Assembly (NCBI RefSeq): GCF_016405985.1
Contig: NZ_JAEFCF010000039.1
Span: 1 to 48,842, forward strand
DNA length: 48,842 nt
Source of the DNA: Paracoccus sp. IB05
Lineage (GTDB): Bacteria > Pseudomonadota > Alphaproteobacteria > Rhodobacterales > Rhodobacteraceae
Direction: 5' to 3'
Positions 4,521-25,515 of this stretch are shown here, piece after piece. The notes below the pieces were generated by a model. That model did no database searches. It saw only the letters and a program-made list of their open reading frames with translations, and was not told where the DNA came from. The first letter of the stretch is position 1; each line of letters starts with the position of its first letter. A program made the translations under genes and the position numbers.

Positions 4521-5339
4521 TCATGGATAGGACCAGCCATCATGTTCGACCCGGAAAATGCGTAAGGGCGCGTTCTGGCGCGTTGTGTCCGGACGGATAT
4601 AGTAAACAACGCGTTGATTTCGGCCAAAGTTGGTGAAATCGACGTTGATGGTGATCATGCCGCGCAGCATGGGGGTGTCGGGATCAGGTGTCGGCTCTCC
4701 GATTGTGCCGTTGAAATCCTGCGCGCCGTAAATCGGATGTGCGCCGATCCGACCTGACGCAAACAGGGCCACGATATCGCTGGTAAAATAATGATTTGCC
4801 ACGTCAGTGTCCAACACACTGGGCAGATTGCTGTTCTCGGACTGAAACTGACGTTCGTAGAGTTCACGCACCAGATCCACGGCCTGCGCGACCGGATCGA
4901 GCCCCGCTTGCGCGGTATAGGGTTCATGCTCGGGTTGCGGCGATGTTTCCGCAGCGGGTGCATATGTCTCGACTCCATCTGGGGTGATGAAGCGCTGCGC
5001 CACCCATCCGGCCTTGCTCATTGTCGCATCGCGCATCAGACACCAGCGCGCTGGCAAGGCTTCGATCTGGGCCTGGCTCATGCGGTGGTAATATTCTGCC
5101 GTGTAGAAAGGCACACAGGTCACCTGCTGCAATCCCCGCTCATTGTGACCAAAACTGTCGATCACCGGATAGCTCGTACCCGGCCCCATGCGGGCATTCA
5201 GGTGATCATTGGCCGAAACCCCGGTGACGCGCCAGGCGTCAGGGCCATGGCCGTCGATTTCAGCTACAGCAGTTACGGCTGTAAGTGTCAAAAGAACCGA
5301 TGCGACGAAGACGGTTGAACGGGCCTCTGGGGTTGTCAT
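4521..5339 (-). CDS. Exported protein with bacterial SH3-like domain (272 aa)
   Basis: A signal peptide (about residues 1-26) is followed by a bacterial SH3-like domain, recognisable by WRVTGVSANDHLNARMGPGT (residues about 36-55), a module that binds peptidoglycan or peptides in periplasmic proteins. Three cysteines fall in or just after it (QVTCVPF, RWCLM). The C-terminal half (about 150-272, from DPVAQAVDLVRELYERQF) looks like a separate mixed alpha/beta domain that I do not recognise. ATG 5339 overlaps the TGA of the vWA gene by 4 bp (ATGA), so the two are translationally coupled. A role as cell-wall-associated partner of the vWA protein is inference. Confidence 0.75.
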   Translation of the reverse strand: MTTPEARSTVFVASVLLTLTAVTAVAEIDGHGPDAWRVTGVSANDHLNARMGPGTSYPVIDSFGHNERGLQQVTCVPFYTAEYYHRMSQAQIEALPARWCLMRDATMSKAGWVAQRFITPDGVETYAPAAETSPQPEHEPYTAQAGLDPVAQAVDLVRELYERQFQSENSNLPSVLDTDVANHYFTSDIVALFASGRIGAHPIYGAQDFNGTIGEPTPDPDTPMLRGMITINVDFTNFGRNQRVVYYIRPDTTRQNAPLRIFRVEHDGWSYP

Positions 5340-7891
5340 GGCTGTACCTCGATGATTGATCGGCCAAGCACTTTTCTGTCAGTCAGGTCAAGAAAGCGCA
5401 GTTCATAGGTTCCGGGGCTGTCCGGCAGGGTCAGGTCAAGACTATTGCCTTCCACAGAACTCGTAGCGCTGATCCAGCTGAAGTCGGCCTGATCGGCGCG
5501 CGCCAGCGCCACGCGCTGATCGCGGCCGTCCTGGCTGGCGGTCCAGGTGACGGTGATTGTCTCGCCCGGTTTGGCGGTGGCGGGTGCCACAAGCCCCGCC
5601 CCATCGTCCAGCGCCGCATCTGCGGCCAGCACCTCAAACGGATGGCGCGCCATGACCCGGTTATCGATATCCAGGTGATAGCGGATTTCGTAAGCGCCCG
5701 GCTCTGTCGGCGCAGTCATCTTGACCTGCGTTGCGCTGTCGATCCGGCGATAATCGCCATATTCGCCCTCCGCAGTCCCGACCGGCACGATGGTGACATA
5801 GTCGCGCGGGTGGATCGCGCCGGTCCAGCTGATGGTCAAATCGCTGCTGGCCCGTAGACGATCCGGGCCGCTGACGGTGACGTTCCCCTCGACCACCTCG
5901 ATCGGAGTGCGGGCCAGAACACGGCCAATCTGCTCCATCTGCAACCGAACCTCATAGAGGCCGGGCTCGGCGGGGGCGCGCAGACGACCCTCGGTCTGGC
6001 CTTCCATGCGGTTATAATCGGTATAGGCGCCGTCCTCGGCGCCCATCGGCACGATGGTGACATAATCGCGCGGATGCAGACCATCAGCCTCCCAGGTCAC
6101 GGTGAAGGCCGATCCGACCGCAACCTGCGCGGGCGCGGAAACGCTCACCTCGACATCGACCACCTCGATCGAAGTGCGGGCCAGAACACGGCCAATCTGC
6201 TCCATCTGCAACCGAACCTCATAGAGGCCGGGCTCGGCGGGCGCGCGCAGACGACCCTCGGTCTGGCCTTCCATGCGGTCATAATCGGTATAGGCGCCAT
6301 CCTCGGCGCCCATCGGCACGATGGTGACATAATCGCGCGGATGCAGACCATCAGCTTCCCAGGTCACGGTGAAGGCCGATCCGACCGCAACCTGCGCCGG
6401 GGCCGAAACAGTGACGGCGGCGTCAATCACCTCGACCGCGGTTGTCGCAAGCACCAACGAACCGCGCCCCTCGGTCTGAAGCCGCACCTCGTAAAGGCCC
6501 GGCTCGGCCGGGGCGCGCAGGCGGCCCTCGGACCGGCCTTCGAGGCGGTCGTAATTGGTATAGACGCCGGCCTCGGCGCCCGCAGGCACGATGGTGACAT
6601 AGTCGCGCGGGTTCACATCGCCCTCGATGGTCCATGACACCGGGACAGCCGCGCCGACCACCACCTGCGCCGGGGCGCTCACGGTGACCGTGGGCAAGGG
6701 CGCCGCGGGCGTCTCGAACACCATGACATGGGTCAGGGCCTCACCCGCCGCCAGATCGAGATCCACGCTTTGCGCGCGTTCCAGAGCGGTATGATGGCCG
6801 GTGATGGTCCAGCCGCCGGGGCGAACCTCCATCACGCCGGGATTGCCGTCGAATTCAAAGCTGTCGCCGTCGCGGCTGAACTCCCAGGTGAATGGCGTGT
6901 CGATCAGCGGGCCGTCGGCGCTGTCCATCACCGCGCGCAGGGTCAGTTCGGCCAGCGCAGGTGCTGCGGGCGGGAACATCACATGCAGATTGCGCGGGCC
7001 TTCAGGGCCGAATGTGCCTTCGGTCTGGACCGGCTGGTCCCAGGCATGGGCGGTGACCGTCACCACATAATCACCAAAGGGCAGATCGAGCGTCAGCGGG
7101 TTGCCGGTGGCCTCGCTCACGAAGCTGAACTCATTGTCCGAGATCTGCCAAAACACCTCGCCCGCGACCAGCGGGGCGGAAGGCGGCTCATTCGGCCAGA
7201 AGAACACAGGCTCTGACCCCATCCGCTCGGGGCTTTGATGGGCGGTGAAGGTGAAGGGGCCAGCGGTCGGCGCGGCGACCTGTTCCAGCGCCGCAGTCAG
7301 CTCTGCGGCATTGTCGGCGGTGAGGAAGCGGCCGCCGGTCTCTTCGGCGATGCATTGCATTTGCATCAGCGCCTCGGCCTCGCCCTTGACGTCAAAGCCG
7401 ATGACATGGGCGGTGAAATCAACGCCTGCTTCATTCAGCGCGCGGGCGGCGGCGCAGGGGTCGGGGTTGCAGGTCTCGATCCCGTCCGAGATCAGGATCA
7501 CGGTCGCCGCCTGTTCGGTATGGCGCAGCGCCTGCGCGGCGGCGATCACGGCATCAGTCATCGGCGTCATGCCGCGCGGGTTCAGCCCGTCGACAATCCG
7601 GGCAATCTCCGCCCCGGTGCCGGGGGCGGGGTCTATCATCGTCTGGATGTCGGAACATTGCCCGCGCTCGCGGTGGCCATAGGTGACAAGGCCAAGGTTC
7701 AGATCCGCCGGGAAGGTGCCGACAAAATCGCGCACCACATCACGCGCGATGGTGATCTTGTTCACCCCGTCGATCTGCCCCCACATTGAGCCGGAGGCAT
7801 CGAGGACGAGGATGGTGTTTGGGCGCTCTTGCGCCATCGCGGGCAGCGCCAACCCGAGGGCGAGCGTGGCGGCGGTCAGCCAGGATTTCAT
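5336..7891 (-). CDS. Exported vWA-domain protein with tandem Ig-like repeats (851 aa)
   Basis: A signal peptide (1-20, ending AMA) is followed by a vWA domain (about 24-205) with a complete MIDAS beginning DASGSM (Asp31, Ser33, Ser35) plus the RGMTPMTDA threonine loop and ISDGIETCNPDPC. Two beta-rich segments follow (about 210-400), then four repeats of about 89 residues marked by PRDYVTIVP and APAEPGLYEVR, and a degenerate fifth (DSPGTYELRF). The middle two repeats are near-identical in DNA. Such proteins act as exported metal-dependent adhesion or scaffold proteins; the ligand here is unknown. It overlaps the upstream membrane-protein gene and the downstream SH3 gene by 4 bp each. A diverged paralogue lies at 21068-24319. 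Confidence 0.85.
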   Translation of the reverse strand: MKSWLTAATLALGLALPAMAQERPNTILVLDASGSMWGQIDGVNKITIARDVVRDFVGTFPADLNLGLVTYGHRERGQCSDIQTMIDPAPGTGAEIARIVDGLNPRGMTPMTDAVIAAAQALRHTEQAATVILISDGIETCNPDPCAAARALNEAGVDFTAHVIGFDVKGEAEALMQMQCIAEETGGRFLTADNAAELTAALEQVAAPTAGPFTFTAHQSPERMGSEPVFFWPNEPPSAPLVAGEVFWQISDNEFSFVSEATGNPLTLDLPFGDYVVTVTAHAWDQPVQTEGTFGPEGPRNLHVMFPPAAPALAELTLRAVMDSADGPLIDTPFTWEFSRDGDSFEFDGNPGVMEVRPGGWTITGHHTALERAQSVDLDLAAGEALTHVMVFETPAAPLPTVTVSAPAQVVVGAAVPVSWTIEGDVNPRDYVTIVPAGAEAGVYTNYDRLEGRSEGRLRAPAEPGLYEVRLQTEGRGSLVLATTAVEVIDAAVTVSAPAQVAVGSAFTVTWEADGLHPRDYVTIVPMGAEDGAYTDYDRMEGQTEGRLRAPAEPGLYEVRLQMEQIGRVLARTSIEVVDVEVSVSAPAQVAVGSAFTVTWEADGLHPRDYVTIVPMGAEDGAYTDYNRMEGQTEGRLRAPAEPGLYEVRLQMEQIGRVLARTPIEVVEGNVTVSGPDRLRASSDLTISWTGAIHPRDYVTIVPVGTAEGEYGDYRRIDSATQVKMTAPTEPGAYEIRYHLDIDNRVMARHPFEVLAADAALDDGAGLVAPATAKPGETITVTWTASQDGRDQRVALARADQADFSWISATSSVEGNSLDLTLPDSPGTYELRFLDLTDRKVLGRSIIEVQP
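5891..6424 (-). repeat. Near-identical 267-bp tandem duplication inside the vWA gene
   Basis: Units 5891-6157 and 6158-6424 are nearly the same base for base (for example GACCACCTCG at 5891 and 6158, GTGCGGGCCAGAACACGGCC in both). Each encodes one 89-residue Ig-like repeat. The flanking repeats on both sides share the protein pattern but are clearly more diverged in DNA, so this is a recent in-frame duplication or a gene-conversion tract. Confidence 0.9.
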
Positions 7892-8859
7892 TGGGGGGCT
7901 CCTTTCGGTGCGCGGGCAAAACGGGTGCTGACACGCTCTTTCAATTTGCGGAAATGCGAGGAGATCTGTTCAAGCCGGGCATCCCATTCCGGGTCCGGGG
8001 TCTGCCCATCGGTGGCCTTGACCCAGACCTGCAACAGGCAGGCCACCGCAAAGGGCTCAAGGAAAGCGGCCTTCACGCTCCAGGCGAACAGCAGCGCAAA
8101 GACGAAACCGCCCGCAGACCAGGCGCCGGGCATGGCATAGACCAGAGCGGCTGCGGGCGCGAGCATGACTAGGAACACCACCGCCGCCAGCCCATAGGTG
8201 AACAGCGTCAGCCAGGCGGCGTTTTTCAGCATGACCTTCCAGTTCTGGCCATAAAGCACCAGCGCCTCACGCGCCGAACCCCAGGCATCGGTCGATCCGG
8301 TGCGGATCGCATGGGCGAGGATGATTTCATCCACAAAGCCGACCGCCACCCGCAAAAACGCCTGCACCACGCCCATCAACTGTTTGACATAGGGAATGGG
8401 CAGGATACCGAGGATCCCACGCACAATGCCGGTGACGGCGCGGATCACGCCCTTGACCAGTTGATCCAGCGCGAAAAGCAGCGAGGCCTGACCGAAACGC
8501 TCTTTCACGACTGTGGTGGCATGGGCGATCTGGCCGCGCCCTTCGGGCAGGGACTTACCGCCCATCAACTCGACCATGACGGCGATATGCCCGGCCTTGA
8601 CGATATAAAGGATATATTCGCGCACCCAATACATCACCGCCCCGGTGATGCCGAAACCGATCATCCCGCCCCAGGCCATGCTCTGGGCGCGGAAATCATC
8701 GTCGCCAAAGGCACCGACGCCCCAGCCGATCCCGATCCCGGTGCCGGTTGCCAGCATATAGGCCAGCGTGATCCCGAAATAGACGCCGGCGCGCAGAGCC
8801 ACAAAGGGCAGCGTGCGCATCATCAGGCCGATGGCCTGGCTGATACTGAAATCCCACAT
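7888..8859 (-). CDS. Multi-spanning membrane protein partnered with vWA protein (323 aa)
   Basis: Family not recognised. The start is ATG 8859 (MWDFSISQAIGL), which has GGAG 11 nt upstream and aligns with the start of the paralogue at 24316-25317; an earlier in-frame ATG (8895) lacks this support. I see about six to eight hydrophobic segments: two near the N-terminus, one at GFGITGAVMYWV, an amphipathic central stretch, then TLFTYGLAAVVFLVMLAPAA and GGFVFALLFAWSVKAAF. The C-terminal tail is charged and cytosolic-like (PDPEWDARLEQISSHFRKLK). The two paralogues match along their whole length, best at EYILYIVKAGHIAVMVEL, AIRTGSTDAW and the tail. The stop overlaps the vWA start (ATGA). A role in assembling or displaying the vWA protein is inference. 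Confidence 0.8.
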   Translation of the reverse strand: MWDFSISQAIGLMMRTLPFVALRAGVYFGITLAYMLATGTGIGIGWGVGAFGDDDFRAQSMAWGGMIGFGITGAVMYWVREYILYIVKAGHIAVMVELMGGKSLPEGRGQIAHATTVVKERFGQASLLFALDQLVKGVIRAVTGIVRGILGILPIPYVKQLMGVVQAFLRVAVGFVDEIILAHAIRTGSTDAWGSAREALVLYGQNWKVMLKNAAWLTLFTYGLAAVVFLVMLAPAAALVYAMPGAWSAGGFVFALLFAWSVKAAFLEPFAVACLLQVWVKATDGQTPDPEWDARLEQISSHFRKLKERVSTRFARAPKGAPQ

Positions 8860-9021
8860 CCGGAAAATTGCTCCTACCCATTCGAATTGTGGCACCCTAA
8901 CGGGCTTTCCGCGTCCCCGCCCCGTTCGTTCAGAGGGGGAAAAGTCGGAAAAGCTGTGGCAGTATGGACCTCAGGGGCTATTCTGCCCCGGTCTAATGGC
9001 AATTTTTCAGCGGAAACCCTC
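8860..9021. promoter_or_regulatory. Divergent promoter region between vWA operon and sensor-kinase operon
   Basis: Both outward transcription units must start within these 160 bp. It holds a short hairpin, GGGG-ctattctg-CCCC, around 8974-8990, but I see no clear -35/-10 pair. Confidence 0.4.
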
Positions 9022-9492
9022 TTGTTCACCCATCGCATCATCGCCGCCACTCTGCTGATCCTGCCCTTTTCCGCCGCATCGCAGGCCCAAGACATCTACT
9101 ATGAGCTTGATGGCGGGGTGGTTTCGGGCGAGCTCTATGCCGATGCGATCATGGAACTGCCGGTGCATGAGCTGTCCACCAGCACTGCTGTGACCGAAGG
9201 CATCCAGCATTTCGAGGGCCACCTGATGCGCGATGTGCTGGCCCTGTTGCGGCGGGAGGAGGGAGAGGTGGTCACCCTCGGCGCGCTGAATGGCTATGAG
9301 ATCGACATCCCGATGCGGGATTTCCACCGCTTTGACGTCATCCTTGCCTGGCGCATGAACGGCCAGACCCTGCATCCGCGCGACAAGGGGCCATACTGGA
9401 TCGTCTATCCACGCGACCAGCATCAGGAATTGCAGGATATCCGTTATGACATCCGCTGGATCTGGCAGTTGAACCGGATCGAGATCCGTTGA
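9022..9492 (+). CDS. Exported molybdopterin-binding-fold (SUOX-like) small protein (156 aa)
   Basis: An N-terminal signal peptide (FTHRIIAATLLILPFSAASQ then AQ) precedes a compact domain ending in PYWIVYPRDQH, LQDIRYDIRWIWQLNRIEIR. This tail is typical of short exported proteins with the oxidoreductase molybdopterin-binding fold that often sit beside sensor kinases in Rhodobacteraceae. It lacks the usual cysteine ligand, so it probably binds a ligand rather than catalysing. No ATG fits the frame; TTG 9022 gives the best signal peptide, with a weak ribosome site (cggaaa). The TGA overlaps the kinase start (TTGA), implying coupling. A role as periplasmic sensing partner of the kinase is inference. 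Confidence 0.65.
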   Translation: MFTHRIIAATLLILPFSAASQAQDIYYELDGGVVSGELYADAIMELPVHELSTSTAVTEGIQHFEGHLMRDVLALLRREEGEVVTLGALNGYEIDIPMRDFHRFDVILAWRMNGQTLHPRDKGPYWIVYPRDQHQELQDIRYDIRWIWQLNRIEIR

Positions 9493-11282
9493 CCAGGCGC
9501 CCGCGCCAACTGCTCGGGGTTGTCCTGCCGCTTTTGACAATCGCCGTCTTTGCGACGGTGCTGGCGTTTTCCTACCGGCAGCTTACGGTTGCGCAAAGCA
9601 CGCTGCGGATCGAGATCACCCAGAATATGCTCTGGGTAATCTCCCGCGCCGAAGCCGCGCATCTGCGGTTGGCCGAGGCCACGGCCCATGCCGGCATGGG
9701 CGACAGGGCCGATCTGCACGAGAAGCTTGATATCTGGTTCAGCACGGCGCGGATCCTATTGGATGAGCCGCAGCGTTCGCGGATGCTGCATCTGGGGCTT
9801 GATGAAACACTGGTAGCGCTGGAGGACGCAGGACCACAGCTTGAGGCCGATATCGCCCAGCTGCTGCGGGGCGATGTTACGGCAAAAGATCGGCTGCAAG
9901 AGGTTCTCCAGCCACTGACGCGCCAGCTCGGGCGGGCGGCGAACCGGGCGATGGTGGCGGAATGGAACGATATCGGCGCCCAGTTGGACGAGACCGCCAG
10001 CCGGATGCGCCAGATCGGTTTCTCGCTCGGGGTGATTGCGCTGGCCGGCGCGGTGCTGATCCTGACGCTGGTGCTGACCGCCCGGTCCTCGAACCGCCGG
10101 GCCGCGCAATTGCAGGCCGAGCGGGCGTTTTCGCAACTGTTGGTCAGCGCCGGGGATCGCGGCGTGGTGGCTTTTGATGCGGCCGGGAAATGTTCCCTGT
10201 GGAATGAGGTGATGGAAAAGCTGCTCGGCATCCGCGCGGGTGATGCTCTTGCGCGGGTGCCGGACGAAATCAGCGGTCTTTTCGCCACCGAACATGTCGG
10301 GGCGCTGCTTTCCGACATCATGGGCGGGCGGGCGCGCGTGTCGCTGGATCAGCCGGTGTTCGGGCCGGATGGCGGCCCGCCCGCCTATGTCGACCTGATG
10401 GGCTTTCCGCTGCGGTCTGAGGATCAGGTGATCGGCGCGGTGCTGATCGCTTCCGATGTGACCGAACGCCACGATGCACAGCGTGAACTGGCCCGGCACC
10501 GCGACCATCTCGAGGCCGAGGTCACGCGCCGCACAGAAGAGCTGGACGCGGCCCTGACCCGCGAACGCGCCTCGCTTGAAATCTACCGCAACTTTGCAGC
10601 CATGGTCTCGCATCAGTTCCGCACGCCGCTGGCGGTGATCGATTCCGGTCTGCAACGCCTGATCCGGCGCGGCACCAGCGCCGATCCGGCTGAGATCAGC
10701 GAACGCGCCACCCGCGCCCGCGGTGCGGTGGCGCAACTGGTGCGGCTGGTGGAAAGTATCCTTGATGCCGCGCGCCTTGACGCGGGCCAGATGACCAACG
10801 ATGCGCTCCAGCTCGATATTTCGGAGCTTGTGCAGGGCATTGTCGCACGTGAGGGCCAAAGCCTCTCTCCGGTCCAGATCGAAACCGGGGCCACGCCCGC
10901 CAATGTCACCGGAGATGCCACCCAGATCGAGCATATCCTGCTCAACCTTCTGACCAACGCCCGCAAGTATACCGGGGCGGGCCTGCCGATCCGCGTCACC
11001 ATTCGCGCGCAGGACGGGCAAGTGCAGATCAAGGTCACAAACCGGGGCCGGATCGTCGCCAATGACCGGCCGCATGTCTTTGATCGCTACTATCGCGGCG
11101 GCGGGGTCGAGGGGATCGGCGGCATCGGCCTTGGCCTCTACATGGCGCGCAGCCTTGCGCGGATACAAGGCGGTGATCTGGCCTTGCTGGATCCGCCCGA
11201 GGATGAAGGCGCGGATGCGGTGGTCTTTGCGCTGACCCTGCCCGCAACCGACCCGGAAAGGAGCCACAATGCGAGGATCTGA
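9489..11282 (+). CDS. Membrane sensor histidine kinase with PAS domain (597 aa)
   Basis: The start is TTG 9489, overlapping the previous TGA. Membrane segments lie at about residues 8-28 and 175-197 and enclose a helical periplasmic sensor of about 145 residues. A PAS domain follows (about 215-325, RGVVAFDAAGKCSLWN), then a short coiled coil, the HisKA dimerisation helix with phospho-acceptor His375 (MVSHQFRTPL), and an HATPase_c domain with an N box (NLLTNARKYT) and a glycine-rich lid (GGIGLGLYMAR). It should autophosphorylate and pass phosphate to the regulator encoded next, whose start lies 14 bp inside this gene. The stimulus is unknown; the coupled exported protein may contribute. Confidence 0.88.
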   Translation: MTRRPRQLLGVVLPLLTIAVFATVLAFSYRQLTVAQSTLRIEITQNMLWVISRAEAAHLRLAEATAHAGMGDRADLHEKLDIWFSTARILLDEPQRSRMLHLGLDETLVALEDAGPQLEADIAQLLRGDVTAKDRLQEVLQPLTRQLGRAANRAMVAEWNDIGAQLDETASRMRQIGFSLGVIALAGAVLILTLVLTARSSNRRAAQLQAERAFSQLLVSAGDRGVVAFDAAGKCSLWNEVMEKLLGIRAGDALARVPDEISGLFATEHVGALLSDIMGGRARVSLDQPVFGPDGGPPAYVDLMGFPLRSEDQVIGAVLIASDVTERHDAQRELARHRDHLEAEVTRRTEELDAALTRERASLEIYRNFAAMVSHQFRTPLAVIDSGLQRLIRRGTSADPAEISERATRARGAVAQLVRLVESILDAARLDAGQMTNDALQLDISELVQGIVAREGQSLSPVQIETGATPANVTGDATQIEHILLNLLTNARKYTGAGLPIRVTIRAQDGQVQIKVTNRGRIVANDRPHVFDRYYRGGGVEGIGGIGLGLYMARSLARIQGGDLALLDPPEDEGADAVVFALTLPATDPERSHNARI

Positions 11283-12333
11283 CGGTAAAGGGTTGATCCT
11301 TTGCATCGACGATGAGGTCGACCTGCTGCGTGATCTGGCCGAGGAACTGCGCGAGGCGGGCTATGGCGTGATCGAGGCCAGCACCGGGGCCGAGGCTCTG
11401 GATCAGCTCGAGCAGGTGCAGCCGGATCTGATCCTGTGCGATATCTCGATGCCGGGGATGGATGGCCATGAGTTGCTGCAAGCGGTGAAGGCTGCGGGCG
11501 GTAGCAATTCGGCGGCACCCTTTGTCTTCCTGACCGCGCTGGCGGAACGGGAACAGATCATCGAGGGCAAGCGCCTTGGTGCCGATGACTATCTGGTCAA
11601 ACCGATCGACTATGACCTGATGCTGGCCACGGTCGAGACCCGCCTGCGCCAGATCCGCCTCTGGCCCAGGCAGACGGCGATCCCCCTGCCATGGGCTGCT
11701 TCGGACCGGCCCGAGGCGCTGGCGGTTCTTGATCTGCTGGCGGTCGGCGTCATCCTGACCGATGCCGCGCGCCGGGTCCATTTCGTGAATGCGGTGGCCA
11801 GAGGCATCCTGCAAGATACGGGCGCGCTCATCACCGAAGGGGCGCTCAGCGCCGCCGACGACAGCGAAAACCGCAAGCTCGGATCATGGCTGCAGCAGAT
11901 CGCGCAGGAGGGGTCGGACAGCGGCGCCAGCCCGCTCGCCCTGCCCTGCCCGGACGGTGCGCGGAGCCTCTCTCTGCTCGGAGTACCGTTTCAGGCGAAT
12001 GGACACGCGGCCCGGATCGCGATCTTTCTCGGCGACCGCCAGAAGCCGCCGCTGCCGCGCGCCGAGACGCTTTCCGCGCTCTATGGCCTGACCCCGACCG
12101 AGGCCCGGATTGCGCTGCTTCTCGCCAGTGGGGACAAACCGGCGGCCATTGCGACCGCCCTCGGCGTCTCTGCAACCACCGTCGCCTTCCATCTGCGCAA
12201 CATATTCGAGAAGACGGGTGCAGACCGGCAGGCGACGCTGGTCGGTATCCTCTTCGCTTGCCCGGCGATATCGGAAGCGTCATCGCTTCCTGTTGCCGAG
12301 GTCAATCGAACAGACCGCTGCGGCACCGAGTGA
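11269..12333 (+). CDS. Response regulator: receiver + central domain + LuxR-type HTH (354 aa)
   Basis: The N-terminal receiver domain has the acidic pair in CIDDEVDLL and phospho-acceptor Asp58 (LILCDISMPGMDG), with the conserved Lys in DYLVKPIDY. A central segment (about 150-265, LAVGVILTDAARRVHFVN) looks PAS-like. The C-terminus is a LuxR/GerE helix-turn-helix (LTPTEARIALLLASGDKPAA, with ATTVAFHLRNIFEKTGADRQ). It is the likely partner of the overlapping kinase gene. Its target genes are unknown; the divergent vWA operon is the nearest candidate. A PAS-like module between receiver and HTH is less common than the plain NarL layout. Confidence 0.85.
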   Translation: MRGSDGKGLILCIDDEVDLLRDLAEELREAGYGVIEASTGAEALDQLEQVQPDLILCDISMPGMDGHELLQAVKAAGGSNSAAPFVFLTALAEREQIIEGKRLGADDYLVKPIDYDLMLATVETRLRQIRLWPRQTAIPLPWAASDRPEALAVLDLLAVGVILTDAARRVHFVNAVARGILQDTGALITEGALSAADDSENRKLGSWLQQIAQEGSDSGASPLALPCPDGARSLSLLGVPFQANGHAARIAIFLGDRQKPPLPRAETLSALYGLTPTEARIALLLASGDKPAAIATALGVSATTVAFHLRNIFEKTGADRQATLVGILFACPAISEASSLPVAEVNRTDRCGTE

Positions 12334-12346
12334 ACGTCCGGACGTT
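12333..12346. repeat. Perfect 14-bp palindrome
   Basis: AACGTCCGGACGTT directly follows the response-regulator stop and lies just before the end of the convergent XRE frame. It could be a short bidirectional terminator stem or a protein-binding site; no T-tract supports a strong terminator. Confidence 0.5.
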
Positions 12347-12349
12347 TGC

Positions 12350-12778
12350 TCAATGTTTTCCTGCTCCTTCAAGCAGTTTCAGAAAAGCCTGCCTCACAAC
12401 TTGCGGTAGCGCAAAATATGCCTTTAGAAGTCGAGCCCGTTCGCCTCTGCGCTGTGTGGATTCCGAGTCTGACAGCGACGCACAATCATCTTTGGACGTA
12501 GGCGGATTCAAAAGTGCAGGAGCGTCCATATCAAATAGCATCGCAATCTTGGCTAGACGTCTGGCGGAAAGGCTGTTTCGTCCTGCCTCGTATTTTTGCA
12601 GCTGCTGATAGCTGATGCCGCTCCCGGCCGCGACCTCAGGGAGTGACAGGCGGCGGCTGGTTCGCAGTTCCTTCAGTCTACGACCGAGGCGTTTGTCAAA
12701 GTTGTCGAATTCGTCGCCCGACTCGGCCTATCCTATACCGAACAGAAGCGAATGCTGCGGTGCGCCCCCGCAAACCAT
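12350..12778 (-). pseudogene. XRE-family HTH regulator interrupted by an amber codon
   Basis: The minus-strand frame from 12727 to 12350 encodes an XRE helix-turn-helix: FDKRLGRRLKELRTSRRLSL, PEVAAGSGISYQQLQKYEAG then RNSLSARRLAKIAMLFDMD. A C-terminal tail (LLKAYFALPQVVRQAFLKLL) resembles that of short alphaproteobacterial phage- or plasmid-type regulators. No ATG, GTG or TTG precedes the HTH within the open frame. A TAG at 12728-12730 separates it from 16 further in-frame codons beginning at ATG 12778. So either the gene is dead by one nonsense change, or it starts at a non-standard codon such as CTG. The insertion sequence begins only 58 bp upstream. Confidence 0.7.
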
Positions 12779-12835
12779 CCTTGTCACCCTGGTGATCGGG
12801 GAGGAAAACCGAACCTGTCCGGTCCCTATGATGGG

Positions 12836-12847
12836 GTGGACGCTCCC
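12836..12847 (+). repeat. IS left subterminal inverted repeat
   Basis: GTGGACGCTCCC, exact reverse complement of 14170-14181; probable end-recognition sequence of the element. Confidence 0.8.
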
Positions 12848-12904
12848 TCCCTCCCGCATTTCTATGTCGGGATCGAGCAGCACCAACTAGAGGATGGACC
12901 CGGC

Positions 12905-14866: not shown

Positions 14867-15184
14867 TCAGATCGCGAAATCTTCCAGCGATTTTCCTGTG
14901 GCCAGAGCCTCGCCGATCCAGCCCGGTTTGCGTCCGCGCCCGGACCAGGTCAGGTCCGGGTTTTCGGGATGGCGATACTTCGCGACCGAAGGAGAGCGCT
15001 TCCGGGTTGTTGCGGCTTCCGCGAGATCCTCGAAAGAATAGCCGAGTTCACGGGCCAGCTCGTCCACCTTAGCGCGCGCCTCAGCCTTGCGACGATCCTC
15101 AAAGGAGGAGATGGCCTTGGCCACCGATTTTTCTAATTGCTTCAGTTCGCTCAGCGAAAATGCATCGAGGTTGATTTCGGTCAT
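14867..15184 (-). CDS. H-NS family nucleoid protein (HvrA-like, 105 aa)
   Basis: A short coiled-coil N-terminus (LSELKQLEKSVAKAISSFED) for oligomerisation is followed by a C-terminal DNA-binding motif, PENPDLTWSGRGRKPGWI, characteristic of alphaproteobacterial H-NS/HvrA proteins. The start is ATG 15184 (MTEINLDAFS) with AGGGGAC about 6 nt upstream; a longer frame to 15265 has a non-homologous extension. Such proteins bind AT-rich DNA and silence foreign genes; plasmid-borne copies often limit the fitness cost of the replicon. It is divergent from the nuclease gene. Confidence 0.88.
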   Translation of the reverse strand: MTEINLDAFSLSELKQLEKSVAKAISSFEDRRKAEARAKVDELARELGYSFEDLAEAATTRKRSPSVAKYRHPENPDLTWSGRGRKPGWIGEALATGKSLEDFAI

Positions 15185-15289
15185 CAAAGTCCCCTTTGTT
15201 CTGCAACATTGATAGGGCAGGGCGCGGTGACAGGCAATTCCCCAATGGGGGACATGGCCAGACATGGCTGTGTGGTCTAATGCTGCCGC

Positions 15290-15813: not shown

Positions 15814-15874
15814 CCGTGACGGGGCAGGGCTGGAGGAGAGGCCTCCGGCGGCCCGTCGCGGAGTGACTGTCATG
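15814..15874 (+). promoter_or_regulatory. Shared leader motif, copy A (before DUF932 gene)
   Basis: Contains GACGGGG, then GGAGAGGCCTCCGG, then GCCCGTCGCGGAG and, 8 nt later, the ATG. The same ordered blocks precede the genes at 18262 and 46168. The last GGAG serves as ribosome site. Confidence 0.6.
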
Positions 15875-17068: not shown

Positions 17069-17121
17069 AGCGAGTCGCACCTTCACAGCGCGGATCATCG
17101 CGCGGTGACCCGGCTACAGGT

Positions 17122-17158
17122 CTTGGGTCGCCGCCTCCTTTTCCATTCTCGACCCAAG
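17122..17158 (+). promoter_or_regulatory. Long-loop hairpin in the DUF932-radC gap
   Basis: CTTGGGTCG at 17122-17130 pairs perfectly with CGACCCAAG at 17150-17158 across a pyrimidine-rich 19-nt loop. It sits between the DUF932 stop and the 66-residue gene; it could attenuate, terminate or protect mRNA. Confidence 0.5.
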
Positions 17159-17212
17159 CGCCTGCAGCCCCATAGGCGCGGGCGGTGGGTTCCTCATTCC
17201 GCGAGACCCCAG

Positions 17213-17413
17213 ATGCAGACCTTCGACGAAAAAGTGGATACCGCTGTTTACGCCGCCTTCATGGCTCTTGGCCTTTCGGTGGCCACGAATATGGAGCTGG
17301 CGATCCGGCTCAACGACTTCATCACCCAGGAATTCCAATTCGTCGTGTCAGATGATGACGACAACGGAGACGCAAGGCTTGCCGGCGGGCCCGGAGGCCG
17401 GGCCGATGACTGA
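17213..17413 (+). CDS. Small hypothetical protein upstream of radC (66 aa)
   Basis: Not recognised. From ATG 17213 it reads MQTFDEKVDTAVYAAFMALG followed by an amphipathic helix and a run of four aspartates (VVSDDDDN). The stop overlaps the radC start by 8 bp, so translation is probably coupled. The ribosome site is weak. No domain can be assigned; its steady position beside radC is the main argument that it is real. Confidence 0.5.
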   Translation: MQTFDEKVDTAVYAAFMALGLSVATNMELAIRLNDFITQEFQFVVSDDDDNGDARLAGGPGGRADD

Positions 17414-17846
17414 GCAGGAGCAAACCGTCATCCTTGAAGCGCGCGAGATTCTTGCGCGCTATTTCAACCAGAACCCGATGCTGACCTCCTGGCAGGCTGT
17501 GCTGGACTACTGTGCCCTGGCCGTCCGCGGCGAGGTCGAATGCTTTCACGTACTCTACCTGGACCGGAAAAACCGGCTGATTTCCGATGTTAGGGTCTCG
17601 GTCGGCACGGTCGATCATGTGCCGGTCTATCCGCGTGAGGTTCTGAAGCGCGCCCTGCTGATGAACGCGTCGGCACTGATCCTGGTCCACAATCACCCCA
17701 GTGGTGATCCCGAGCCTTCGGACGCTGACCTGAAAATGACGAAGGAGATCCAGAAGGGCTGCAAAACGCTGGGTCTTACCCTGCATGACCACATCATCGT
17801 GGGTGCTGGCAGGGAAATCAGCCTGCGGGCACGGGGGGATATCTGA
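17406..17846 (+). CDS. radC: Short RadC-type JAB/MPN protein (146 aa)
   Basis: The RadC JAMM motif is complete: LILVHNHPSGDPEPSDAD with His95, His97, Ser105 and Asp108, the zinc-site pattern HxH-x7-SxxD. SWQAVLDYCALAVRGEVECF and FHVLYLDRKNRLISD are also typical. At 146 residues it lacks the N-terminal helix-hairpin-helix of chromosomal RadC (about 225 residues), as usual for plasmid and phage copies. Despite the name, a DNA-repair role is not established; plasmid copies are associated with mobile-element maintenance or anti-restriction. ATG 17406 overlaps the preceding gene. Confidence 0.9.
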   Translation: MTEQEQTVILEAREILARYFNQNPMLTSWQAVLDYCALAVRGEVECFHVLYLDRKNRLISDVRVSVGTVDHVPVYPREVLKRALLMNASALILVHNHPSGDPEPSDADLKMTKEIQKGCKTLGLTLHDHIIVGAGREISLRARGDI

Positions 17847-18204: not shown

Positions 18205-18264
18205 GGCGACGGGTCATGAGGTGGGAGAGAGGCTTCCGCTGCCTGTCGTGGAGACACCGTGATG
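18205..18264 (+). promoter_or_regulatory. Shared leader motif, copy B (before gene at 18262)
   Basis: Reads GACGGGT, then GGGAGAGAGGCTTCCGC, then GCCTGTCGTGGAG and an ATG 8 nt later. It has the same blocks and spacing as copies at 15814-15874 and 46110-46170. Confidence 0.6.
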
Positions 18265-18825: not shown

Positions 18826-18832
18826 CGCCGGC

Positions 18833-19024: not shown

Positions 19025-19054
19025 AGCAACGCGGCTGCCGGGTTGCCCGGTCCG

Positions 19055-20334: not shown

Positions 20335-21063
20335 CTAATCGACCCTTCGCGCCGTGAACGGTGTAACTGTCCGGCACTGCATGTTCTGGAGTATGGCCTG
20401 CGCTGCCGCATCGGCGAGGCCTGACGAAATATCATACTCAAAGACACTCGAGCCGGTTACTTCGGTTGGGCTCACCAGGGCCAGCTGCCAGACGACGCTC
20501 GCCCCTGTCGTGTCGGCACCGTCCGAGAGTCGCTCATCCACGAGAACGCCGCGCCATGAATGGTCTCCTGTGGAAGTCCAGCTCACGTGGCCGACGGCCC
20601 CTGACATCAGCGTGCTGGGCGAAAACCATCCGCCCCAATTGATCTGGCGGGTCTCGCCGCTCATCTGACCCGGCACGGCCTGACCTGTCATTGCAAACAG
20701 GGGGCAGGCCGATGCGTCGGTAGCCCCTGTCGTTATGCGCCACATGCCGTCTTCGGGAATGAGCGGTGCCTCCAGCTGGATCGGACAGGAACCCGGCCCG
20801 CCAAAGGACGCATCGATCTGTGCAGGGGTTTGAGCCCGCCAACTATACTCATTCTCATACACGACAAGTGTCATGTCGCCCGCTCCCGGTGGATTGGGAG
20901 CGCCAAGGATGATTTCGACATCGGAAAGCGCCGTGCCTGGCACATGGCAGCTACAGCCTCCCTCCATGCACATGGCGATCTGGACCATCTGTGCCTGGGC
21001 CGCAGGGATGACGCCGAACGACAGGACCAGGCCGAAAGTGGCGGATGCGAGCTTGTTTCTCAT
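20335..21063 (-). CDS. Exported protein of unknown function, last gene of vWA module 2 (242 aa)
   Basis: Not recognised. ATG 21063 gives a signal peptide (MRNKLASATFGLVLSFGVIP then AAQAQ) with GAGGACT upstream; the longer frame to 21207 is out of character. The mature part has a cysteine cluster near its N-terminus (AMCMEGGCSCH), two more cysteines (GSCPIQL, SACPLF) and many Trp/Ser/Gly residues, suggesting a disulphide-bonded beta protein. It starts 4 bp after the vWA-2 stop. In module 1 this place is taken by an unrelated SH3-like exported protein, so the slot appears exchangeable. Confidence 0.75.
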   Translation of the reverse strand: MRNKLASATFGLVLSFGVIPAAQAQMVQIAMCMEGGCSCHVPGTALSDVEIILGAPNPPGAGDMTLVVYENEYSWRAQTPAQIDASFGGPGSCPIQLEAPLIPEDGMWRITTGATDASACPLFAMTGQAVPGQMSGETRQINWGGWFSPSTLMSGAVGHVSWTSTGDHSWRGVLVDERLSDGADTTGASVVWQLALVSPTEVTGSSVFEYDISSGLADAAAQAILQNMQCRTVTPFTARRVD

Positions 21064-21067
21064 GATT

Positions 21068-24000
21068 TCAGTCCTCCGACCGGTTGTTGAACAGCGCGCG
21101 CAGGACCACCTCCGGATCGCGCCCGCCGAGATCGACCGGGATGATGGCGCCCGGATCCGCGAAAGTCGCCGGAGCGGTGGTCGGCTGAGTAACTGATGCC
21201 TGATCACTTGCAGCTATGATGAACAGATCGGTGAATTCCGGGACAGCCATCACCTCGACCGGCAGGGGGCAGGCGGTCACCGGACCGGAATTGCCTACGC
21301 CCATGCGGCACTCTACCGGGCCAACGCTGACCACCAGTGCAGCGCATGGCGACATCAGCATCGGCGGGGTGAGCGCCTGACCGGCGTCGCTATAGGCGTC
21401 GATTTCCAGCACCACAGGGTCACCGGGATTGAGCGCCGGCGTGACGGGTTGCCCGTTTGCCGTGGCGCTGATCGGCGCGAACAGCGTGAAGGCTTCGCCC
21501 GACGGGTTCGCAAGTTCGGTGTTCAGGAAACAGCCAGTTCCGAATTGCTCGGCGGGCCGAATGGTTAAACGGATCGCACCGGTCGTCTCGGGGTATCGGG
21601 GCGCGGCCACGCCGTCCGCGCCTGACGCCGCGACCTGAAGCGAAGACGCAATTCCCTCAAACCCGATCTCCGCACCCATCCCCTGTCCATTGACCATGCA
21701 GAGCTGATTTGCGCCGACAGACCGGCAAGGGCCATTCGACTCCATCCATTGACGGGGGTTCAACTCCACGCTGATGACAGCGCCGAAATCTTCCGCAAAG
21801 AAGGTGGCAGTTGGCAGATCGGCGCGCGCCCCGCCAGCGGTTTCGTAGAAATACGGCTCGCTCATGGACCAGTTGTTGGGCAGGGTCAGGGAGATACCGG
21901 TTGCGGCATGATTTACCACGCAACCCGACGGATTGTCAGTGCAGTGAAAGGCCACCGGGTCCTCAACGGTGTCGGCAAATGCGGCGAGCGGAATCTCGAA
22001 ATCGTTGCCGCCTGCCGGATCAATCGTAATAGTTCCTGCAAGCCGGATTCCAGCCGCCTCATTGATCCCCTCGACCTCGTAGGTGCCCCCCGGAGCCAGC
22101 CGGGTCGTGAAGGTTGGCAAAAGATCGTGGCTGGCAACGGCAACATCCATTTCCCGGATATCGGAGCGGATGGCCGACCACTGCACCCCGACATCACCGA
22201 TCTCCAACGGCGTACGTAGGCGCACTGGTATGGTCTCGGACACAGTCGGATCGGGCGTTTCAGCGGATGTGGGCGAGCCGGTCATATCAACGAAATCGGC
22301 GGGTGCCGGACCATGCACGGCCGCGCGCATTTCGGCCAGCGAAGGGGGCTCATAGCCGCCAGGCCACATAACGACGCTCATGCCTTGCGCCCCTGAGGAC
22401 AGGGTGCCCGCATAGCCGATGCCAAAAGGTGTGAGGTAGAGCGTCATGGGCTCCGGGATCGGCTCTCCCACCGTGAAAGTCATGCGCAACACCTCGCCTT
22501 CCAGCGTTGCGGATGTAAAGGTTCCTTCCCGTCCGGCCGCGTGTGGCCCGGCAAGACGTTCCCCGACCGTCCAGCTTCCGCCGATCGGACCGTTGGGTTG
22601 CGCCTGTTCAAGCGCGAGGGTCAGCAATTGGTCAGCCTCCGCCTGCACCTGATAGGGCGGCACACCGATAATCTGCCACGGTCCGTCAAGTGTCGCCGCC
22701 GATGCCTCATCCTCGGATGCGTCGACCGGGGGGATGACGAAATTGTTGTCCTGCCCGGGGTAGATTTCCACCTCGGCGCTGAACTCAACTTCGCCCGGTC
22801 CCGTGGTCGTGACGCGATAGCGGCCGGGCTCGAACGCGCCTTCGCCAACGACCATCTCCGAGATGGGCGCCCAGGCCTCCGGGTTCATGTCGGGATCGAG
22901 CGGAACCGCCGACCACCAGAGCGGGATCTGCGGGAAGGTGTCGGGGATACGGAACCTTGCCTCCACCATCGGCATGGCGTCCTGGCCCGGCGCGGCTTGC
23001 GTGGCCGCTGCGGCCTGCGCTGCGAGATCGGCTGTGGTGGTGAGTTCGGTGTCCTCGAACGGCACGCCGACACCAAACTCGCGGGAGAACAAGATTTCCT
23101 GCTGGTTGCCGGAGATGTAGCGAAGTTCGTAAATGCCGGGCTCTGCCGGTGCCCGCAGGCCCATGCTTTGGCTCTGCCGGTTGCTGTAGGGATAGCCCCA
23201 GCTCTCGAAATAGTCACTGGGTGCGGCACCAAGTTGCGCGATCACGATGCGCTCGCCCACCTGATTTGGGCCGCGCCAGGTGAAGTCGAACCGCGCTTCG
23301 GGCTCGACCGAACCGATGGCATCGAAGCCGTTGGAAGGGGGCACGACCTCGATGGGCTGGCGGGCGATCTCGGTGCCGGTTGCCGATGAAATCAGGACCA
23401 GTTCGTAAAATCCCGGCTCGGCCGGCGCGACGCGGGTGACGGGATTGTGAGGGGCGGACGAGCTGCCGCCGATGGTGCCGAAGCTGCCAGAGCCGGGCGC
23501 CCTGCTTTCGCCCGGGATGACGAAACCCATATAGTCGGTATAGCCCGCCTCGCCGGTCCAGCGGATCGTGTAGTTGAACCCCGCCTCGGCCTTGTCGCCG
23601 ATGTCGAAGGCCGCCTCGGGCTCGGGAACCGGTGCCGGAGCGGGTTCGACGGCGGCGATCTGGTCAAGCGCATCGGCCAGTTCCTGCCCGGTCTGCGGGG
23701 TCAGCAGCAGCCCGCCGGTGGCATCGGCCACGCAGGCCATCGCCGCCGCCTCTTGCGAGGTCAGGCCAAAGCCGACGACATGCGCGCGGATGGCGATCCC
23801 TTCCTGCGCCAGTTGCGCGGCCAGCGCGCAGGGGTCGGCTTCGCAGGTTTCCAACCCGTCGGTGACAAGGATGATATCCGCGGATTCCGCCGTGGGCGGG
23901 ATCATCGACGCGGCCAGCGAGAGGGAATCCGTGATCGGGGTCATTCCGCGCGGGTTCAGGCGGTTGAGTTGCGCCGAAAGTTCGGAAGGATCGCGAACGC

Positions 24001-24319
24001 CGACATCGGCAATCACCTGGATGTCAGAGCAGTCGCCGCGCCGGTTGTGGCCATAGGCGATGACGCCCAGCGGAACGCTGGTGTCGCGGCTGGCGAAGAA
24101 ATCACCGATCACCTCGCGCGCGACCTCGACCTTGGTGACCCCGCCGTCAAGCTGCCCCCACATCGACCCCGAGGCGTCATAGATCAGGATCGAGGCGGTA
24201 TCGGCCTGCTGCGCCGCTGCCGGAGGCGCGACCCCCGCCAGGGCGCTGATAGCAGCAATACAGCCGATGCGTGCCAGCCCGGTCAGCCGGCCATTTGTCC
24301 CCTTGTGGTGCGATGTCAC
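21068..24319 (-). CDS. Exported vWA-domain protein, second copy (1083 aa)
   Basis: A signal region (about 1-37) is followed by a vWA domain (about 40-225) with MIDAS DASGSM (Asp48, Ser50, Ser52), RGMTPITDS and VTDGLETCEADPC; this part aligns well with the protein at 5336-7891. Next come two or three Ig-like segments related to the repeats of copy 1 (WTGEAGYTDYMGFVIPGESR, APAEPGFYELVL, RAPAEPGIYELRYI), then several hundred residues of beta-rich domains not shared with copy 1, with a cysteine-rich patch (FHCTDNPSGCVV) and a C-terminal ADPGAIIPVDLGGRDPEVV segment. The GTG start overlaps the membrane-protein stop by 4 bp. Exported and probably surface- or periplasm-located; ligand unknown. Confidence 0.85.
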   Translation of the reverse strand: MTSHHKGTNGRLTGLARIGCIAAISALAGVAPPAAAQQADTASILIYDASGSMWGQLDGGVTKVEVAREVIGDFFASRDTSVPLGVIAYGHNRRGDCSDIQVIADVGVRDPSELSAQLNRLNPRGMTPITDSLSLAASMIPPTAESADIILVTDGLETCEADPCALAAQLAQEGIAIRAHVVGFGLTSQEAAAMACVADATGGLLLTPQTGQELADALDQIAAVEPAPAPVPEPEAAFDIGDKAEAGFNYTIRWTGEAGYTDYMGFVIPGESRAPGSGSFGTIGGSSSAPHNPVTRVAPAEPGFYELVLISSATGTEIARQPIEVVPPSNGFDAIGSVEPEARFDFTWRGPNQVGERIVIAQLGAAPSDYFESWGYPYSNRQSQSMGLRAPAEPGIYELRYISGNQQEILFSREFGVGVPFEDTELTTTADLAAQAAAATQAAPGQDAMPMVEARFRIPDTFPQIPLWWSAVPLDPDMNPEAWAPISEMVVGEGAFEPGRYRVTTTGPGEVEFSAEVEIYPGQDNNFVIPPVDASEDEASAATLDGPWQIIGVPPYQVQAEADQLLTLALEQAQPNGPIGGSWTVGERLAGPHAAGREGTFTSATLEGEVLRMTFTVGEPIPEPMTLYLTPFGIGYAGTLSSGAQGMSVVMWPGGYEPPSLAEMRAAVHGPAPADFVDMTGSPTSAETPDPTVSETIPVRLRTPLEIGDVGVQWSAIRSDIREMDVAVASHDLLPTFTTRLAPGGTYEVEGINEAAGIRLAGTITIDPAGGNDFEIPLAAFADTVEDPVAFHCTDNPSGCVVNHAATGISLTLPNNWSMSEPYFYETAGGARADLPTATFFAEDFGAVISVELNPRQWMESNGPCRSVGANQLCMVNGQGMGAEIGFEGIASSLQVAASGADGVAAPRYPETTGAIRLTIRPAEQFGTGCFLNTELANPSGEAFTLFAPISATANGQPVTPALNPGDPVVLEIDAYSDAGQALTPPMLMSPCAALVVSVGPVECRMGVGNSGPVTACPLPVEVMAVPEFTDLFIIAASDQASVTQPTTAPATFADPGAIIPVDLGGRDPEVVLRALFNNRSED

Positions 24320-25314
24320 GGTGTCGATCCTTCCTCAGGCAATTGTCCGGCAGGGCCGGCACCGGGCGCACCGCGCCCGCCAATGGCCTTGTCCTTGATC
24401 TTGTTGAATTGCTTTGAGACGCTCGACAGTTTCGCGTCCCATTCGGGGTTGGGCTGCTGTCCCTCGATGGTCCTGAAATAGACTTCCATCATGCAGGTGA
24501 CGGCAAAGGGCTCGATCAGCGCCGCCTTGACCGCCCAGGCAAAGATCAGCGCGAAGACGAACCCGCCCGCCGACCATTGGCCGGGAATGAGCCAGACCAG
24601 AGCGGCGGCCGGGGCCAGCATCAACAGGAAGACCAGGAACGACAGCCCATAGACGATGATCGTCAGCCAGGCCGCGTTCCTGAGCATGGGCTGGTAGTTC
24701 TGCCCGTAGAGGACGAGTGCGCTGCGCGCCGACTGCCACGGATTGGTCGATCCGGTGCGAATGGCATAGGCGAGGATAACCTCGTCGATGAAGCCCACGG
24801 AAATGTTGAGAAAAGCGCGCAAGATCCCTGTCATCTGCCGCAAGCCGGGGATCGGCAGGAACGAGGCGATACCCTGGATGAGACCTGTCACCACGCGCAG
24901 CACGCCCTTGACCAGTTGGTCTATGGCAAAGAGCACACTGGCCTCACCAAAGCGTTGCCTGACCACGGCGGCCCCATGGGCCACCTGCGACTTGCCGGAT
25001 GGCATGCCGCGCCCGTCAAGCAGCTCGACCAGCACTGCGATATGCCCGGCCTTGACGACATAGAGGACATACTCGCGCAGGATGTAGAGGACTCCGGCGG
25101 TCAGGCCGAAGCCGATTGCGCCGCCCCAGAAGATCGCCCCGGCCCGAAACCCCTCGTCACCGAGCGCGCCGATGCCCCAGCCGATCCCGGCACCCGTGCC
25201 GGTGACAATGACATAGGCCGCCGCCATGCCGAAATAGACGGCCATGCGCAGCGCGATGAAGGGCATGGTGCGGCCCATGAGGCCGAGAGAGCGGGAAACC
25301 GAAAAATCCCACAT
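24316..25314 (-). CDS. Multi-spanning membrane protein, second copy (332 aa)
   Basis: Full-length paralogue of the protein at 7888-8859: both begin MWDFS, share YVLYVVKAGHIAVLVELL, VLFAIDQLVKGVLRVVTG, ILAYAIRTGSTNPW, ALVLYGQNY and the tail NPEWDAKLSSVSKQFNKIK. Divergence is even along the length, so the duplication is old or the two arrived separately. ATG 25314 is preferred; a GTG one codon upstream is also possible and no strong ribosome site is visible. About six to eight membrane segments. The C-terminal extension here is Gly/Ala/Pro-rich. The family is not one I can name. Confidence 0.8.
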   Translation of the reverse strand: MWDFSVSRSLGLMGRTMPFIALRMAVYFGMAAAYVIVTGTGAGIGWGIGALGDEGFRAGAIFWGGAIGFGLTAGVLYILREYVLYVVKAGHIAVLVELLDGRGMPSGKSQVAHGAAVVRQRFGEASVLFAIDQLVKGVLRVVTGLIQGIASFLPIPGLRQMTGILRAFLNISVGFIDEVILAYAIRTGSTNPWQSARSALVLYGQNYQPMLRNAAWLTIIVYGLSFLVFLLMLAPAAALVWLIPGQWSAGGFVFALIFAWAVKAALIEPFAVTCMMEVYFRTIEGQQPNPEWDAKLSSVSKQFNKIKDKAIGGRGAPGAGPAGQLPEEGSTP

Positions 25315-25515
25315 CACGTTTTAAACTGATCGTGGTGCGGGCATTCCTCGTTGAATGGCTTTGGCTCCATATCCGAACTCTCACCTGTAAATATGGTTCA
25401 CCCTCATCAGCAGGAAAGGTGCGCTCAGGGTGCAGAGTAAGCGGGCGGGAATAGCTCGTCTTGGGGAGAGCGGATGTGAAACACGGGGTGAGCGGAACAG
25501 ACTTTGGAAGCCTGT

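Follow-up and report, generated by a model that had tools for sequence, protein, structure and literature searches.

A MEM–vWA gene module in Paracoccus sp. IB05 and the predicted CysZ/CTL-type fold of its membrane protein

The function of the choline transporter-like (CTL/SLC44) proteins is disputed. According to the available part of a 2026 structural paper by Nel et al. (PMC13160678), CTL1 and PNS1 have an unusual bowl-like fold, transport no choline in oocytes and have an unknown function; their structural neighbours are CysZ, followed by SLC25. CysZ, PNS1 and CTL1 are also the ones that come closest, among the structures compared, to the predicted structure of MEM, a multi-spanning membrane protein encoded twice in a contig of Paracoccus sp. 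IB05 (NZ_JAEFCF010000039.1; the whole stretch of 48,842 nucleotides that was analysed is called the window) and coupled at both places to an exported-type protein with a von Willebrand factor A (vWA) domain. The likeness to CTL/SLC44 (human CTL1, yeast PNS1; PF04515) lies in the predicted MEM core with its three helix pairs, whereas MEM is prokaryotic, often linked to a vWA gene and about 330 residues long, lacks the N-terminal helices and the extracellular domain (by aligned ranges) and gives no PF04515 match in 79 members. CysZ (EI24, PF07264) is likewise similar in predicted fold, but MEM is about 100 residues longer, has no PF07264 match in the same 79 members and shows no significant profile similarity.

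The vWA proteins of the window have in common with other exported bacterial vWA proteins (PF13519/PF00092) a vWA domain with a metal-ion-dependent adhesion site (MIDAS); they differ in the signature DxSxSMWGQ, four invariant cysteines, immunoglobulin (Ig)-like repeats and the coupling to MEM. Unlike DUF3828 proteins (the type VI secretion immunity protein Tai3, the TolC partner YbjP), the SH3-like third protein of one module has an N-terminal SH3b domain and no PF12883 match. The interpretation that is tentatively favoured here, at somewhat less than an even chance, is a regulated cell-envelope module with MEM as docking platform.

The MEM–vWA pair and its recurrence

Both modules lie on the minus strand. 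The first is composed of MEM copy 1 (7888–8859; 323 residues counted from MWDFS, with an alternative GTG start at 8895), vWA copy 1 (5336–7891; 851 residues, with a signal-like N-terminal stretch, a vWA domain with MIDAS and repeats of about 89 residues that are Ig-like by a reading of the sequence) and an exported-type SH3-like protein with an SH3b domain (4521–5339; 272 residues). The second is composed of MEM copy 2 (24316–25314; 332 residues, with three predicted helix pairs and a short helix before each), vWA copy 2 (21068–24319; 1083 residues, vWA domain at about residues 43–221) and a Cys/Trp-rich exported-type protein (20335–21063; 242 residues), whose family also follows vWA in loci L035–L038. 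The MEM and vWA genes overlap by 4 bp in both copies. The two MEMs are 62% identical over 309 residues (E 1e-135) and the two vWA domains 44% identical over 181 residues; the third proteins have no mutual similarity by BLASTP. A sequence-only reading had placed the same pair at 4521–8859 and 20335–25314, with a membrane protein of 320–330 residues (about right), a 4-bp overlap, an intact MIDAS and a different next gene in each copy, and all of this was confirmed. The source genome (108 contigs) encodes two MEMs and two vWA proteins of this type, all in the window.

The vWA protein of copy 1 passes the Pfam cut-offs (PF13519 with 43.3 bits against a cut-off of 27, PF00092 also above its own), and two of its adjacent Ig-like repeats are almost identical. 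Copy 2 remains under the Pfam cut-off and was counted as vWA because of the identity of its domain to that of copy 1. The MIDAS motifs DxSxS, T and D are intact in both; an alignment of 11 rows shows no variation at D7, S9, S11, T85 and D112 or at four cysteines. The best NCBIfam model is BatA, with only 31.5 of 380 bits. Simple scans of the window proteins revealed neither a lipobox nor a C-terminal hydrophobic anchor.

In a set with one genome per species, 466 stretches encode MEM; the 80 best were fetched as loci, and these 80 are all from Pseudomonadota by title (alpha, beta, gamma). Since these are the best-scoring of 466, locus fractions are not population estimates. Of 78 loci (L100 and L101, where MEM was not called, are excluded), 22 have the vWA gene immediately downstream of MEM on the same strand, and 28 have it no more than two genes downstream. 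With the two of the window there are 24 directly adjacent MEM–vWA pairs, eight of them with a 4-bp overlap by the starts of the gene caller. Chance is excluded, since the arrangement recurs in other genomes.

The vWA family was present in 20 of 25 MEM-positive genomes against 10 of 29 MEM-negative ones (Fisher p 0.001), and in 14 of 19 against 10 of 29 after two over-sampled genera had been collapsed (p 0.017); the 29 genomes were hand-picked from earlier listings, not drawn at random. The co-occurrence extends to genomes in which the two genes are far apart, e.g. G003, G026, G065 and G093. Alignment A1 omits MEMs that are broken or partial (G013, G016, G022) as well as the second copy in each of G080 and G094; these genomes stay MEM-positive in the count, G016 with only a 63-residue remnant containing a stop. 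Alignment A2 omits L059, which is identical to L057. Distances of linked MEM and vWA proteins are correlated (r 0.82, 29 pairs; 0 of 2000 permutations as high), which is the expectation under co-inheritance. The co-occurrence in other genomes, whose absence was to refute the sequence-only reading, thus stands in part, each of the two genes also being found alone.

In a tree that was built from 80 MEMs by a quick method, with SH-aLRT as the only support, the separation of rows with vWA or SH3 within six genes (37) from the rest (43) needs seven changes. Shuffled labels need about 27 on average, none of 500 shuffles being as low as seven, and the starred branches force at least five. The linked rows fall into three groups, named after the layouts described below: an A/C clade (29 of 37 rows, support 99), a B clade (5 of 5, 99) and an AraC–vWA clade (3 of 3, 98). 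The nearest MEM to window copy 1 is that of L095 (Pseudogemmobacter, 87%) and the nearest to copy 2 that of L038 (Ancylobacter, 85%). A recent tandem duplication is ruled out, as the two MEMs sit in different clades. Judged by the MEM tree, the two modules are separate lineages, so that of the 'two copies' of the sequence-only reading the presence of two modules stands and duplication does not.

The predicted fold of MEM

No characterised family could be detected for MEM by sequence, a point on which the sequence-only reading had asked for a check. When 79 MEMs were compared with Pfam up to E 10, where HMMER filters hide most matches above 0.1, 12 families appeared, with a best E of 0.054 in one member; the commonest was a DUF (9 members, best E 0.63), and PF04515 and PF07264 were absent. 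The two window MEMs reached no NCBIfam model at its cut-off, and MEM had no sequence match in the PDB. PF04515 had no match in the source genome, and its 'matches' in relatives (three of eight examined: L144, L146 and L151) are by eye other proteins, which we take to be COX2-like, RodA/FtsW-like and TRAP-like, respectively.

A model of MEM copy 2 was made with AlphaFold2 from 79 sequences and reached a predicted local distance difference test (pLDDT) value of 85.2 and a predicted template-modelling score (pTM) of 0.78. Its core layout is the one that Nel et al. describe for the CTL core, with a short (amphipathic) helix in front of each of the three helix pairs. The model holds the core only, aligning with residues 207–537 of PNS1 and 313–607 of CTL1; the ten-transmembrane-helix arrangement of CTL is missing, since M1–M4 before the core are not present. 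Foldseek alone returned nothing below E 0.001, with PNS1 second (E 0.08, prob 0.99). VIA-align 2, run over the Foldseek candidates, gave Z 13.7 (3.8 Å, 221 residues aligned), 12.6 (5.3 Å, 227) and 11.6 (4.9 Å, 211) for three CysZ chains, 11.8 (5.7 Å, 236) for PNS1, and 11.5 (7.5 Å, 243) and 11.3 (5.8 Å, 226) for CTL1, followed by values of 6.6 and lower, mitochondrial carriers first; the tool cautions that helical models may reach such Z values without kinship. A CysZ/CTL-type fold of MEM is supported by this model, and was extended to copy 1 because it is 62% identical to the modelled paralogue. Charged or amide residues conserved to at least 95% within the predicted helices include R23, R80, E81, K88, H91, D132, Q133, K136, D177, E178, R186, N213, K263 and E268.

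Direct proof of CTL or CysZ kinship by sequence failed with Pfam, PDB, hhalign, hidden Markov model (HMM) and profile comparisons. A comparison of MEM with CTL by hhalign gave a probability of 0.2% and E 0.39. The MEM HMM scored 4.6 bits on CTL1, with 16 of 1979 scored shuffles as high, and −1.5 bits on PNS1, with 923 of 1941 as high. The sole aligned stretch (MEM 185–214, CTL1 504–533) was not significant, although its register (offset 319) fits that at the end of the structural alignment (offset 320). Among 1282 other locus proteins, two scored above CTL1 and two equalled it (L028|0, a MEM fragment, was excluded). As sequence comparison does not confirm kinship, likeness of fold is claimed and membership of a family is not: what the check returned is no characterised family by sequence, and nonetheless a CysZ/CTL fold in the model.

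Layouts, mobility and distribution

Neighbouring genes were called with a codon-usage script and clustered by BLAST in 81 sources (80 loci and the window). Tabulation of the neighbours, as proposed along with the sequence-only reading, placed a vWA gene within six genes of MEM in 33 sources, a histidine kinase in 30, MOP150 in 26, a response regulator in 25, SH3 in 21, AraC and Cys/Trp-rich proteins in five each and LuxR-type regulators in four; the kinase and regulator clusters may include unrelated kinases, and the caller missed the window's own MOP150. In layout A, that of window copy 1, regulator, kinase and MOP150 diverge from MEM–vWA–SH3. Layout B consists of MEM, at times one further gene, vWA and the Cys/Trp protein; L038 and window copy 2 also have an AraC gene upstream (in the window at 25516–26475, minus strand, directly upstream of MEM, a position that this family occupies in 5 of the 81 sources, counting the window). 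A related form, in L063, L076 and L113, has AraC and lacks the Cys/Trp protein. Layout C is LuxR–MEM–vWA–SH3 in L039, L042 and L044, and lacks vWA in L040; in L040 and L044 a protein of 1265–1269 residues with a metalloprotease-like motif follows. The fixed core with exchangeable exported-type partners that had been read from the window recurs elsewhere, and the regulators are exchangeable too. Numerous MEMs are solitary.

Solitary vWA genes adjoin housekeeping-type genes. In L211, L213, L215, L218, L219 and L226 such a gene lies at most four genes from a gene that is UvrA-like by eye (about 950 residues), and this neighbourhood is a second conserved setting of solitary vWA. A family of 365–369 residues with no convincing Pfam match sits between MEM and vWA in L038 (9978–11087); in L210 (8615–9712) the neighbour of a solitary vWA gene looks similar by eye.

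The regulatory arm of layout A is encoded on the plus strand of the window by MOP150, a small protein of the molybdopterin-binding-domain type (9055–9492; start set by offset from the annotation of plasmid pAMI8), a PAS sensor histidine kinase (9489–11282; 597 residues) and a response regulator with a LuxR-type helix-turn-helix (11269–12333; 354 residues). The molybdenum ligand in molybdopterin-domain enzymes is a cysteine. A MOP150 relative in L087 matches PF00174, and neither the 31 called members nor the window copy have a cysteine beyond residue 25, which makes molybdenum held by a cofactor unlikely; MOP150 is thus probably free of cofactor-bound molybdenum, and perhaps a sensor derived from an enzyme fold. 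At the other end of the cassette lies an open reading frame (ORF) of 155 residues (4011–4478, minus), annotated on pAMI8 too.

Pfam SH3_3 is matched by 6 of 17 SH3 relatives (best E 5e-5), the window protein not being among them. The C-terminal domain of the window protein has an NTF2-like, Tai3/YbjP-like fold in a low-confidence model (pLDDT 59), for which the first Foldseek rows were MlaC (E 0.006) and nothing fell below 0.001; PF12883 is absent from the Pfam matches of the 17 members up to E 10. Gln207-Asp208 is invariant in all 17, and its equivalence to the QDX motif of Tai3 is a candidate only. Alignment A4 leaves out L059, L070, L091 and SH3 calls of at least 330 residues.

The entire type-A cassette, sensor included, is common to the window (3693–12433) and pAMI8, a conjugative plasmid from Paracoccus aminophilus; the match falls into two pieces, one 97.7% and the other 94.0% identical. 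This plasmid was the best of 165 matching records, the next covering 6% of the 25-kb query. The DNA of the SH3 gene is identical; MEM differs at 46 codons, 38 of them synonymous, and vWA has 762 residues on pAMI8 against 851 in the window, with one 89-residue repeat fewer and some substitutions. In the available part of its description, pAMI8 is dispensable and has two Tn3434a copies (PMC3925955). Another module on the same plasmid is more distantly related (63% to MEM copy 2). Copy 2 itself has no close plasmid counterpart, the best covering the MEM and AraC genes (68–72% identity, 11–23% of the query). Among 72,556 plasmid records 87 carry MEM, a single genus accounting for 62 of these, and its gene is labelled 'hypothetical protein' in the plasmid records examined. 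A viral origin of MEM was rejected: no phage record contains it, viral contigs hold no profile relative, and the archaeal query gave one 36-residue match. A fold search with MEM of a viral structure library returned nothing below E 0.2.

In genome counts that include the source genome each time and come from overlapping draws, MEM is present in 12 of 100 family members, 4 of 387 class members and 12 of 398 phylum members; the vWA family is broader (37 of 299 phylum genomes, E up to 1e-15). A distant MEM (37–39% identity over 325 residues) bears a long Pro/Ala-rich tail, about 350 residues in length and in L136 rich in Pro, Ala and Glu, and adjoins a hisB-like gene by eye in two genomes of the family (L136 9001–11070, L137 9001–11064). 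MEM copies are frame-split or partial in L029, L030, L031 and L013, with a long vWA gene adjoining in L029 and L030, and decay of the module may be common among relatives.

Clear MEM relatives are also present on plasmids of at least two haloarchaea, Natronococcus occultus and Natrononativus amylolyticus, and score 154.7 and 134.2 bits against the MEM profile. In Natrononativus a 1068-residue protein (L237 7001–10207) starts one base past MEM and has a twin-arginine-like N-terminal stretch (by eye), a DDSGSM motif, a weak match to an NCBIfam VWA model (residues 435–482; E 3e-4, 20.3 of 81 bits) and a transglutaminase-like stretch below the Pfam cut-off (E 0.03); upstream of MEM there is a membrane gene of the DUF4870 type. 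The vWA profile built here gave the protein −1.3 bits, with 1139 of 1484 scored shuffles as high, which leaves the DDSGSM motif and the NCBIfam match as the points in favour of a vWA domain. The second Natrononativus MEM and the Natronococcus MEM have no such neighbour. If the protein were a vWA protein, the pairing would extend to another domain of life, which is a lead only.

Elsewhere in the window, four stretches (193–2028, 12752–13930, 14867–15265 and 15863–17846) look plasmid-like, with a transposase ORF of the IS110 type and a gene resembling H-NS (both by eye) as well as DUF932/RadC genes and an error-prone DNA polymerase by the annotation of plasmid matches; the contig may be a plasmid or an integrated element. 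Arsenic-resistance-like genes (ArsR-like and related) and a ParB-like protein were seen by eye at 32118–38639 and 46168–48327.

Proposed function and alternatives

The sequence-only reading knew of no named system with such a composition, and none was found for the MEM–vWA module in Pfam, NCBIfam or PADLOC; the roles in secretion, surface display, contact or defence that it suggested are candidates only. A known defence system was rejected by PADLOC: six proteins (MEM, vWA and third proteins) remained unmatched up to E 0.01, while only the kinase and the response regulator match a few models. No description of the module was found in a limited literature search, and the main text of the pAMI8 paper (PMC3925955) contains neither 'von Willebrand' nor 'vWA'.

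In the favoured interpretation, MEM would be an inner-membrane bowl of the CysZ/CTL fold, with three helix pairs and conserved polar and charged residues in the helices, serving as docking platform and unlikely to be a free-running channel. Its translationally coupled partner, the vWA protein with a signal-like N-terminus, would be exported to the periplasm, where the MIDAS metal and the Ig-like repeats may tie MEM to a further envelope partner. The third gene would supply an exchangeable end of the complex, either the SH3b and Tai3/YbjP-like domains of type A or the Cys/Trp-rich protein of type B. Expression may be set by the locus-specific regulator found in the neighbourhood (MOP150/kinase/response regulator, AraC or LuxR-type). 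Speaking for this interpretation are the recurrent MEM–vWA linkage in three clades, the genome-level co-occurrence, the correlated distances, the modelled fold, the conserved charged or amide residues within the helices and the lack of choline transport reported for CTL1 and PNS1. For the module as a whole, the localisation, the physical complex, the platform role and the regulatory control are what we infer.

The alternative that survives best, and is nevertheless unlikely, makes MEM a permease of the CysZ kind, which would carry an anion or a small solute, with the vWA protein as periplasmic capture or gating subunit. It would readily explain the solitary MEMs and agrees with the three CysZ chains among the top structural scores and the invariant charged residues within the helices; weighing against it are the absent PF07264 match in 79 MEMs, the non-significant MEM–CysZ profile comparison and the fact that CTL1 and PNS1, of the same fold, moved no choline in oocytes in the available part of PMC13160678.

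Surface display or secretion, in which MEM would aid the export or assembly of the vWA/Ig protein as an adhesin, is quite improbable. The combination of vWA and Ig-like repeats, the variable repeat number (851 against 762 residues on pAMI8) and the exchangeable, exported-type third proteins would suit it, but no secretion ATPase, outer-membrane channel or anchor is found among the annotated recurrent neighbour families, the simple scans gave the window proteins neither anchor nor lipobox, the vWA protein has a signal-like N-terminus of its own, and its family occurs in 10 of 29 MEM-negative genomes. Just as improbable is a link through shared regulation only, with co-transcribed MEM and vWA serving separate processes; each is indeed found alone beside other genes, but linkage in three separate MEM clades, adjacency with gene overlap and genome-level co-occurrence even at a distance argue against it. 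About as improbable, finally, is cell-wall protection, in which MEM and vWA position the SH3 protein, a sensor kinase triggers the system under attack, SH3b binds peptidoglycan and the Tai3-like domain blocks incoming peptidoglycan amidases, since the model of that protein is of low confidence with MlaC in the first Foldseek rows, none of its 17 members matches DUF3828, it has no PADLOC match and it is absent from the type-B loci examined.

A far-reaching extension of the docking-platform interpretation is a long shot: CTL-fold proteins would be ancient docking platforms for extracytoplasmic adaptors instead of transporters, the coupled vWA protein would be the prokaryotic adaptor, and the plasmid type-A form would shield the cell wall, its SH3b/Tai3-like domain blocking peptidoglycan hydrolases when the MOP150 sensor kinase gives the signal. 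If this were true, human CTL proteins would have to be viewed as partners of extracellular proteins and not as choline carriers. What is described here is a plasmid-mobile module, probably of the envelope, whose membrane gene is a 'hypothetical protein' in the plasmid records examined; a prokaryotic family with a CTL-like predicted fold, which its gene order often links to a single soluble partner, would offer an experimental handle on the function of that fold.

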